A stretch of 64,000 nucleotides of DNA, from assembly GCA_013390785.1 (NCBI GenBank), contig JACASW010000001.1, positions 62,001 to 126,000 on the forward strand, in the 5' to 3' direction. Origin of the DNA: Marine Group I thaumarchaeote. GTDB taxonomy: Archaea > Thermoproteota > Nitrososphaeria > Nitrososphaerales > Nitrosopumilaceae. Below the pieces are notes generated by a model that made no database searches, was not told the DNA's origin, and saw nothing but the letters and a program-made list of their open reading frames with translations. Position numbers and translations under genes: made by a program. This document shows, one piece after another, positions 18,820-21,658 of the stretch (the first letter of the stretch is position 1; the number at the start of each line of letters is the position of its first letter).

Positions 18820-18931
18820 TTTTGTTTGTGAGTTTCTTTAACGAAACTGTGATGTTATGATTTTTTGTTCGTATAATTGTGAATAATTATTGTCCCGTTA
18901 TGATATATCATTTTATGGTTAATTTGTTGTG

Positions 18932-19504
18932 ATGTTAGTAGATATCCCCGATGCAGGCATCATATTGGTTTCTGTGTTGGCATTTTTGTGCGGTCTTGTC
19001 ACGTTGTACTTGTACACAAAGATACGATCGCCTGGCAGCGCAGTAAGGGTTGCCCCAACAAACTTGGACCGTATAGACTACTATGAAAGAGAATTAATCG
19101 ACATGAAAATACGCCTAGACAGTATGGACTTGGATGGTAAAAGCTTCACTAGCCCCGATTTGCCTAAGAAAAGAGTAAAGTCGTTTGAGGAGCCTGAGAT
19201 GGAGAAACAAGAATTTGTAGTTTCAAAACCTGCCACGGCTCCACGAGTTCCGAACATGAGCTTCGAAGATTCGCTTGTTCATGTATTGAAATTAATCACA
19301 AACAGACCAATGACATCACGTGATATTGAAGTGACATTAGGAAAATCACGTGAGCATGTTTCACGGTTTATGAAAAAATTGTTTGAGGATGGTTTTGTTA
19401 GTAGAGACAATTCCGTCAGGCCTTATAGATACACAATTACTGAGAAGGGCAGAGCGCGAGTTGGTTCTGATGAAGGCGGTATTGTTTACGCCGTTTCACA
19501 ATAA
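18932..19504 (+). CDS. Membrane-anchored winged-helix protein
   Basis: 190 residues. One N-terminal transmembrane helix (about 8-28), a coiled, charged linker (about 40-100), and a C-terminal winged helix (about 105-175) reading SFEDSLVHVLKLI, MTSRDIEVTLGKSREHVSRFMKKL and a wing with YRYTITEKGR. The topology suggests a DNA-binding domain tethered to the membrane inner face. GTG 18929 and ATG 18932 are both possible starts. Confidence 0.7.
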   Translation: MLVDIPDAGIILVSVLAFLCGLVTLYLYTKIRSPGSAVRVAPTNLDRIDYYERELIDMKIRLDSMDLDGKSFTSPDLPKKRVKSFEEPEMEKQEFVVSKPATAPRVPNMSFEDSLVHVLKLITNRPMTSRDIEVTLGKSREHVSRFMKKLFEDGFVSRDNSVRPYRYTITEKGRARVGSDEGGIVYAVSQ

Positions 19505-19507
19505 TGC

Positions 19508-19891
19508 CTAAGGATGTTTTTGTGCTATACGAATGATTTGGTAAGACCATTCCCTTCCTACACGCTTGCGCTCAATCCTATTGCGTGAGGCAAATCTTGC
19601 TAGGTAGGTAGAAACTATACTTAGTTTGATAGGCTCGTTATACTCATCCTCATACTTCTCAAGCACGCCTGAAGAGGTGAACTTGCCTGCGGGAAAGTGG
19701 TTCTCTACAACATTCCAGATTTTGCCTCCTATAGAATCCAAGTCTGGTGCCTGTTCTTCCTCTATATTCATCAAATCCATTAATTCAAAGAGTTTTAGGA
19801 CTTTGTCCTTTGTGACGTTGCCCTCTATGTCAAACTTGAATTTGGCACCGTCAGTGTCCTCTAAGTTTATTCGTATCCGCTTCTGTTTCAT
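19508..19891 (-). CDS. Conserved-looking protein next to the candidate origin, possible DNA-binding
   Basis: 127 residues. The N-terminal strand-rich part (RIRINLEDTDGAKFKFDIEG) precedes an acidic helix, and a C-terminal winged-helix-like segment (about 70-120) holds FTSSGVLEKYEDEY, SIVSTYLARFASRNRIERKRVGREW. It transcribes away from the origin region. Not a named family that I recognise. Confidence 0.5.
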   Translation of the reverse strand: MKQKRIRINLEDTDGAKFKFDIEGNVTKDKVLKLFELMDLMNIEEEQAPDLDSIGGKIWNVVENHFPAGKFTSSGVLEKYEDEYNEPIKLSIVSTYLARFASRNRIERKRVGREWSYQIIRIAQKHP

Positions 19892-19914
19892 ATCGAGATC
19901 TATGAGGATCTTAT

Positions 19915-20175
19915 GTTAACACTTCAATGGATCCTACAAGTTTTGTTAACAAATGAATTTGTTAAGATTGACTGCCTGGCCCACGCCTGTATGTTTTTAG
20001 TTGTTAACACTACCTGGACTGGAAACGGGGGGGTATTGTTAATTTTCGTGGGTGGAGTGGAAATTAAGGGGTGTTTTTGGGTTGTTAACATCTGTTAAGG
20101 CTCTTCTTAACACCTAAAATGCTAAAAGGGGTGTGTTTTAGGCTTATTTTATAGAAATATAGTATATTATTAACA
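19915..20175. other. Candidate chromosomal replication origin (oriC)
   Basis: A 400-base gene-poor stretch next to orc1/cdc6. It holds repeated GTTAAC or one-base variants at 19915, 19945, 19961, 20003, 20038, 20084, 20094 and 20106, the last two forming a perfect inverted repeat TGTTAAG-N6-CTTAACA. A seven-G tract lies at 20027-20033, like the G-string of archaeal origin recognition boxes. An AT-rich run with AAAAAAATTTTTT near 20225-20238 could be the unwinding element. Confidence 0.7.
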
Positions 20176-20422
20176 AAACCTTCTATTATGAACCCACACA
20201 CCTTTGTTTCTAGTCTTTTGTTTTAAAAAAATTTTTTATGACATATACAAACTAACAAGAAAAAGAATAACAACACACACTTTCCAAAAGAATAGATAAG
20301 AAATAATGGTGTGTGTCACCGATCAGGCCCGATCAGAGCACGTCAACCAGAACGATCAATCTTGTAAAAATCCACTACTGGATCCATTCAAGTGTGAAAT
20401 TACAATAAAAAATGATCTCAAA

Positions 20423-21658
20423 ATGAGTATAACAACTTTAGATCCAGTGGAACGTTTACTTGACAACGCAGAACAAGGCAACTCAATAATCAAAAACCCA
20501 AACGTGTTACGGCACGACTACATTCCTGAACGAATTTTACATAGAGATAAACAACAAGAGTTGGTAACACAATCCTTAATTCCATTATACAAAAAATCAA
20601 TACCACCAAACCTGTTGGTGTACGGCAAACCCGGTACAGGCAAAACACTTGTTGTAAAAAAAGTATTGAACCAAATTCAAAACAGAGTTGACAAAAACTC
20701 ATACCAAATTAAAATCGCAACCACAAATGCAAAGGATCAATCAAACCTTTACAATGTGTTGGTTGACTTGGGCAGGCAATTAGGACTTAAATCAAAAAAG
20801 ACACCGGACGACAAACTTTGGTTACCAAGCACAGGATTGTCAATCAGTGAAGTCTTTAATCGTATTCTTTACGTTATTGAAAAAAACAAAATAAACACGG
20901 TTTTTGTAATTGATGAAATAGATCATCTTGCCAAACTTGTTGATAAGACAGGGAAAGACATACTTTACTCAATTACAAGGGCAAACCTCAAACTAAAAAA
21001 TGGCTCACTATCTCTAATTGGAATTTCCAACGACGTTAGGTTCAAGGAGGGACTAGACCCAAGAGTCATTAGCACGTTAAGCGAAGAGGAACTCGTATTT
21101 CCTGCTTATGAAACAAACGAAATAAAAGAAATTTTAGAAGACAGAATACCACTAGCATTTGAAGAAAACTCTGTTACAAGCGGCGCTTTGAACCTATGTG
21201 CATCTATGGCATGTAGAGAACATGGCGACGCCAGGAGAGCAATAAAACTACTAGATGTAGCAGCAAAAACCGCCGAGTTAAAACAGGACAAGACTATAAC
21301 AGACGAACACATACGTTTGGCATCTCAAAGAGTTGAGGTAGACAAAGAATCCCAACAACTCAACGCTTTTTCACTTCATGAAAAACTACTTGTGATTACC
21401 ATAATGAAATCTCCCAACATCTCAACTGGAGATGTATATTCTGGTTACAAATCACTCTGTAAACAAACTCATCAAAACACACTCACACAAAGGAGGATTA
21501 CTCAGATGCTTAATGAGATAGAATTATCTGGACTCATTACAGGTAAAATGATACACCAAGGAATTCATGGAAATACGAAGAAATTCAATCTAACAATCAT
21601 GCCAGATTTGGTAAAAAACACTCTCAAACCTGACGAAATATTCGTAGATATTCTGTAA
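20423..21658 (+). CDS. cdc6: Orc1/Cdc6 replication initiator
   Basis: Origin-binding AAA+ ATPase. Walker A GKPGTGKT at residues 68-75 (from ATG 20423), Walker B FVIDEIDHL, sensor-1 SLIGISND, and sensor-2/arginine region GDARRAIKLL. The C-terminal winged helix binds the origin. The frame opens earlier (ATG 20306), but that 39-residue extension is polar and less typical. It sits directly beside the candidate origin. Confidence 0.93.
   Translation: MSITTLDPVERLLDNAEQGNSIIKNPNVLRHDYIPERILHRDKQQELVTQSLIPLYKKSIPPNLLVYGKPGTGKTLVVKKVLNQIQNRVDKNSYQIKIATTNAKDQSNLYNVLVDLGRQLGLKSKKTPDDKLWLPSTGLSISEVFNRILYVIEKNKINTVFVIDEIDHLAKLVDKTGKDILYSITRANLKLKNGSLSLIGISNDVRFKEGLDPRVISTLSEEELVFPAYETNEIKEILEDRIPLAFEENSVTSGALNLCASMACREHGDARRAIKLLDVAAKTAELKQDKTITDEHIRLASQRVEVDKESQQLNAFSLHEKLLVITIMKSPNISTGDVYSGYKSLCKQTHQNTLTQRRITQMLNEIELSGLITGKMIHQGIHGNTKKFNLTIMPDLVKNTLKPDEIFVDIL

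Follow-up and report, generated by a model that had tools for sequence, protein, structure and literature searches.

A very probable ORB/DUE-type replication origin in a Marine Group I archaeon, with an interleaved TT[A/C]ACA element and a candidate second binding protein

Does the DNA beside the orc1/cdc6 gene of a Marine Group I ammonia-oxidising archaeon hold a replication origin, and which protein reads the repeats clustered there? The locus lies in a stretch of 64,000 nucleotides (the window, whose coordinates are used throughout) from a 152.5-kb contig of a 0.95-Mb draft genome. The initial annotation had proposed a candidate origin adjoining the initiator gene and had suggested that its GTTAAC-like motifs, unlike the classic euryarchaeal or crenarchaeal ORB, may be a thaumarchaeal form of the origin box. 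The first proposal is upheld by canonical ORBs, by an AT-rich stretch set between opposed ORB-like copies, by conservation across the class, and by a skew extreme in a closed congener. The second has to be given up, as classic ORBs are present and the motif is a separate element. We consider the locus very probably the chromosomal replication origin, and as an origin it belongs to the known archaeal ORB/DUE kind. The whole is probably best explained, judging from sequence, as such an origin carrying an extra TTAACA element bound by a divergently encoded winged-helix protein.

The gene next to the motifs (20306–21658, + strand) is a true orc1/cdc6, as first proposed, matching PF22703 (E = 3e-20), PF09079 (E = 3e-15), and TIGR02928 (E = 3e-100). 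Its annotated start may be some 39 codons upstream of the real one, possibly the ATG at 20423: in most relatives the alignment begins only near residue 40, and the 20306–20422 extension overlaps an ORB-like copy. In the intergenic region beside the gene, two canonical ORBs had been overlooked along with an opposed ORB-like pair—ORB 1 (TGGACTGGAAACGGGGGGGT, 20015–20034, + strand) and ORB 2 (TGGAGTGGAAATTAAGGGGT, 20053–20072, + strand). Both have the TCCA-GAAA core and a G-string, are conserved as boxes in relatives, and outscore every other place in the window against the common archaeal ORB published for Ori-Finder 2, at 16/20 for ORB 1 (4 mismatches; 3/22 against the family consensus) and 17/20 for ORB 2, the sole window match with at most 3 mismatches, where 0.05 are expected. 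The G7 tract noticed earlier is real (20027–20033) and forms the G-string of ORB 1. The position of ORB 2 is conserved in the family, and that of ORB 1 holds an ORB only in the window's own clade (L002–L004). ORB 3 (CCTAAAATGCTAAAAGGGGT, 20113–20132, + strand) is decayed here and intact in most relatives, so that this clade shows ORB turnover, with an upstream direct box gained and the third-position box of other genera decaying.

The AT-rich stretch of the first reading is likewise real (20217–20293; 77 bp, 79% AT) and is our proposed DNA unwinding element (DUE); the lowest-GC 75-mer within 19–22 kb begins at 20203. It lies between ORB-like copies of opposite polarity: an inverted copy at the left border (CACACACCTTTGTTTCTAGTC, 20195–20215, − strand), conserved and with 5 mismatches to the ORB, and a direct copy at the right border (AGATAAGAAATAATGGTGTGTG, 20294–20315, + strand), which overlaps the annotated orc1/cdc6 start and has the same layout in relatives. 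An inverted repeat (I1, 77% complementary) pairs 20195–20215 (−) with the copy in 20281–20315 (+). Both end copies are degenerate in the window and clearer in relatives; opposed ORBs around a DUE are the textbook archaeal layout (PMC6742236).

In the 64-kb window itself, cumulative GC skew stays level for the first 20 kb or so and drops thereafter, a suggestive but noisy signal, and the skew of the 152.5-kb contig is mixed, for which reason we used a closed genome of the same genus (1,232,128 bp, one cdc6). There, the cumulative GC-skew curve peaks at 1,227,924, a distance of 4.2 kb from the cdc6 locus when counted across the contig ends, and reaches its lowest point at the antipode, at 613,015 or 49.8% of the chromosome; third-codon-position skew flips sign between the chromosome halves on both gene strands. 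Such a pattern is the one expected of a single bidirectional origin. Owing to these extremes, the absence of a skew change, named in the initial annotation as grounds against an origin, does not apply: the change is present at the orthologous locus of the congener, with the window's own skew noisy. The closed genome G018 (loci L172–L233) has a polarity opposite to the usual bacterial pattern, with cumulative GC skew maximal rather than minimal at the origin, and its leading strand is poor in G, even though genes show a slight bias towards co-orientation with replication.

Scanning for sites and aligning the family located nine TTAACA-type sites. Four have the palindromic form TGTTAACA (site 1, 19914–19921; site 2, 19944–19951; site 4, 20002–20009; site 6, 20083–20090), three are TGTTAA on the + strand (site 3, 19960–19965; site 5, 20037–20042, not conserved outside the clade; site 7, 20093–20098), and two lie on the − strand (site 8, 20107–20112; site 9, 20170–20175). 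The initial count of eight GTTAAC-like motifs in about 200 bases thus agrees with eight TGTTAA/TTAACA in 199 bp (19914–20112), to which the ninth at 20170 is added, and the inverted repeat seen in one motif pair, sites 2 and 3, is exact (TTAACAAAT/ATTTGTTAA, 19946–19954/19957–19965, 100% complementary). Counted on both strands, the cluster reaches 12 TGTTAA/TTAACA starts per 250 bp. None of 200 simulated 64-kb windows with matched dinucleotide composition exceeded 6, and the next densest place in the window has 3. The origin has 13 starts in 300 bp on the 152.5-kb contig, where the next best place has 3, and 11 in the closed same-genus genome, where the next best has 4. Such clusters, far above chance and unique in the genome, bear on whether the locus might be no origin at all, just an AT-rich promoter region with chance repeats. 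The noisy GC skew within window and contig would fit that reading, which we nevertheless regard as very improbable, since it leaves the ORBs, their conservation, and the clean antipodal skew of the closed congener unexplained as well.

The origin's composition is conserved well beyond the window. In an alignment of 28 relatives, two ORBs (CAYGCCTRGASTGGAAAYAAAGGGGT) stand in direct orientation at a spacing of about 61 bp, each flanked on both sides by TTAACA-type sites whose positions are fixed, and the same composition recurs in most of ten families of the class; the motif search around orc1/cdc6 in other thaumarchaea that had been suggested at the outset thus returns both TTAACA-type sites and ORBs. 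The same alignment contains a conserved GC-rich block (19970–19989, + strand; GACTGCCTGGCCCACGCCTG in the window, GACTGCCTRGCCCACGCCTRG in the family), which has CACGCCTRG in common with the sequence flanking the family's ORBs on the left; CACGCC, ACGCCT, and GCCTAG are among the family's top 6-mers. The real ORBs in the window rule out GTTAAC as the thaumarchaeal ORB: the motif is interspersed between ORBs, over 260 bp, without taking their place, and its distribution in the phylum follows the winged-helix neighbour and not Orc1.

An unbiased 6-mer ranking of cdc6 upstream regions placed TGTTAA/TTAACA first in families f1, f2, and f3 and second in f6, f8, and f10, and TGTGAA/TTCACA first in f4 and f7 and in 15 genomes of other classes that have the winged-helix gene; ORB words rank first in genomes without it. 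Because the ranking gives one word or the other by lineage—TTAACA in most Nitrososphaeria, TTCACA in some Nitrososphaeria families and in other classes of the phylum—we define the element as TT[A/C]ACA. It is a second origin element, distinct from the ORB with which it coexists, and it is ancient. TTAACA is enriched 11.2-fold over expectation in the class and TTCACA 8.7-fold in other classes with the winged-helix gene, compared with 0.8-fold (TTAACA) and 2.3-fold (TTCACA) in genomes lacking the gene, a comparison confounded by phylogeny in that the gene is missing from one large clade. Three gene-less loci have ORBs with 1–2 mismatches yet only 0–1 TT[A/C]ACA sites. Against the preferred reading stand L167 and L169, where the element is absent near the cdc6 copy examined. 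In the literature searched, outside which most subscription journals fall, we found no description of the TT[A/C]ACA element and its protein, and no relevant paper joining GTTAAC with archaeal origins.

The candidate reader of this element is encoded divergently to orc1/cdc6 (19508–19891, − strand), an uncharacterised protein of 127 aa with an N-terminal beta-hairpin and helix followed by a C-terminal winged helix; judged by this protein, the closest relatives of the window are Marine Group I thaumarchaeote single-cell genomes. The gene is present in 119 of 120 class genomes, in single copy in nearly all, and is usually divergent to orc1/cdc6 across a gap of 340–650 bp in most families. It lies about 3 kb from orc1/cdc6 in three f2 genomes, and in f9 and at L166 it is co-directional with orc1/cdc6, between a TTCACA array and the DUE-side ORBs. 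A profile search recovered the protein in 98/151 genomes of the phylum; about 15 of the 36 other-class carriers checked by coordinates have the gene divergent to orc1/cdc6, and of the 15 loci retrieved as neighbours, 14 were confirmed to be divergent. On the other side of the gene, and convergent with it, 18929–19504 (+ strand) encodes a protein predicted to begin with a membrane segment and to continue as a winged helix, a putative membrane-tethered DNA-binding protein whose closeness to the origin is noteworthy; 57 of 57 full named loci have the order PcrB, 18463 ORF, 18929–19504 gene, winged-helix gene, origin, cdc6.

The AlphaFold model of the 127-aa protein (pLDDT 81.7) has its winged helix at residues 49–123, with Z scores of 8–11 against Fur, Z-alpha, archaeal Orc1, and other winged helices; the fold is common and by itself suggests no more than that the protein probably binds DNA. 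No match to the N-terminal hairpin and helix was among those listed, most of which were to the winged helix. Sequence searches gave no match for the window's protein in Pfam/NCBIfam, among solved structures (best E 0.1), or among plasmids. Its generic winged-helix matches include the Cdt1 C-terminal domain (E = 5e-3). The protein falls outside the Orc1/Cdc6 family, being 127 aa long with no AAA+ match and no P-loop in its alignment. Penicillinase_R (PF03965, BlaI/MecI) matches 22 of 31 family members weakly (best E 2e-6), membership being defined by a match over its gathering score, and does not match the window protein.

We propose this protein as a second origin-binding factor beside Orc1/Cdc6, and the TT[A/C]ACA sites are probably bound by it. 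The element is enriched where the gene is encoded and not in genomes without it, even beside good ORBs. One alternative would have an origin served by Orc1 alone, with TTAACA sites as extra Orc1/Cdc6 contacts, similar to mini-ORBs, and the winged-helix gene a mere conserved neighbour. In its favour, Orc1 alone has been proven to bind at most archaeal origins, where a variety of boxes can be recognised by its AAA+ and winged-helix domains (PMC4010727, PMC6742236). TTAACA, however, has nothing in common with the ORB and stays distinct while the ORBs remain canonical, it is absent near ORB-bearing orc1/cdc6 genes in genomes without the winged-helix gene, and its variable base tracks a residue in the recognition helix of the winged-helix protein; we therefore hold this account to be improbable.

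That residue is position 92, where the recognition helix of the model begins (KLS-X-[IV]STYL). It is T in 42 TTCACA loci and V, I, L, M, or A in 63 TTAACA loci, so that 105 of 112 informative loci are concordant and 7 discordant (L161, L298, L054/L314, L158, L290, and L291). The f19 lineage (L152, L270), inside a TTCACA clade, has undergone an independent double shift, from T to A at residue 92 and from TTCACA to TTAACA. As related genomes are not independent, we also mapped both characters on a tree built with column 92 masked, where we counted 7 changes at residue 92 and 5 in the motif; under nearly every pairing, the 5 independent pairs include none that contradicts the association, but they are too few for significance (sign test p 0.125–0.25). 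Column 92 is among the top three that separate the motifs and makes the fewest errors, with columns 114 (in the wing) and 21 about as good. Two f6 loci, L049 and L050, are outliers of use for work on specificity, with a divergent recognition helix (HALVSTYLMR) and TTAACA sites nonetheless.

Alternatively, the winged-helix protein could bind these sites to regulate transcription of the two divergent genes, its own and orc1/cdc6, with replication proceeding through the ORBs alone. Two divergent promoters do enclose the sites, and bacterial and archaeal repressors have this fold. The interleaving of sites with ORBs is harder to fit to this reading, as are L170 and L171 from other classes, which retain TTCACA by orc1/cdc6 with the gene elsewhere, and the f2 genomes, where the gene lies about 3 kb off and 6–10 sites and three ORBs stay by orc1/cdc6, with 0–1 sites upstream of the gene. 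Since the sites remained with the ORBs after the gene had moved, they belong to the origin and not to the gene's promoter. A purely regulatory role thus appears unlikely to us, although less so than the alternatives above. Autoregulation of the winged-helix gene as the sole role of the sites is disfavoured by the f2 arrangement; control of orc1/cdc6 alone from them is possible.

Under the preferred reading of an ORB/DUE origin with a second bound element, Orc1/Cdc6 from the adjoining gene would bind the direct ORBs and the opposed ORB-like pair bracketing the AT-rich stretch, melt that stretch, and load two MCM helicases, as at known archaeal origins. The winged-helix protein would bind the nine TTAACA sites (ancestrally TT[A/C]ACA) through residue 92, and several copies may coat, bend, or compact the left half of the origin. 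Bound copies might act in either direction, assisting Orc1 loading or restraining and shielding the origin between rounds, and the sites may additionally regulate orc1/cdc6 transcription.

Ammonia-oxidising archaea are among the most abundant cells in sea and soil, and their origin recognition has barely been studied. We lean, if only slightly, towards a two-protein origin in most Thermoproteota outside the gene-less crenarchaeal lineages, in which Orc1/Cdc6 on ORBs and an undescribed 127-aa winged-helix protein on interleaved TT[A/C]ACA would have co-evolved since before the classes split. If true, recognition by Orc1 alone would not be the rule across TACK archaea, and the origin would have a further linked protein whose binding code can be read and which is conserved into other classes of the phylum. 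The locus supplies a testable trio of protein, DNA box, and specificity residue, and the cluster of ORBs and TT[A/C]ACA makes a good oriC finder for the phylum.

Among the closest known systems is Nitrosopumilus maritimus, whose one chromosomal origin was mapped by marker frequency (Pelve et al. 2013, as related in PMC4010727 and PMC5333045) and predicted by Ori-Finder 2 (PMC4164010). Genome G041 (1,645,259 bp), presumably this species, has the winged-helix gene, TTAACA sites, cdc6, and two ORBs with 0 and 2 mismatches to the family consensus; the window differs in its clade's gain of the ORB at 20015–20034 and ongoing loss of the third. With Sulfolobus oriC1, Pyrococcus, and haloarchaea, as portrayed in PMC6742236 and PMC4010727, the window shares ORBs with a G-string, opposed copies around an AT-rich DUE, and an adjoining orc1/cdc6, but it has in addition a second repeat family, interleaved with the ORBs and tied to another protein. 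Sulfolobus WhiP at oriC3 offers an analogy in role, being a non-Orc1 winged-helix protein encoded beside an origin; WhiP, however, drives its own ORB-less origin (PMC4010727 for both points), whereas the window's protein, of 127 aa and with one winged helix, coexists with ORBs and Orc1 at a single origin.
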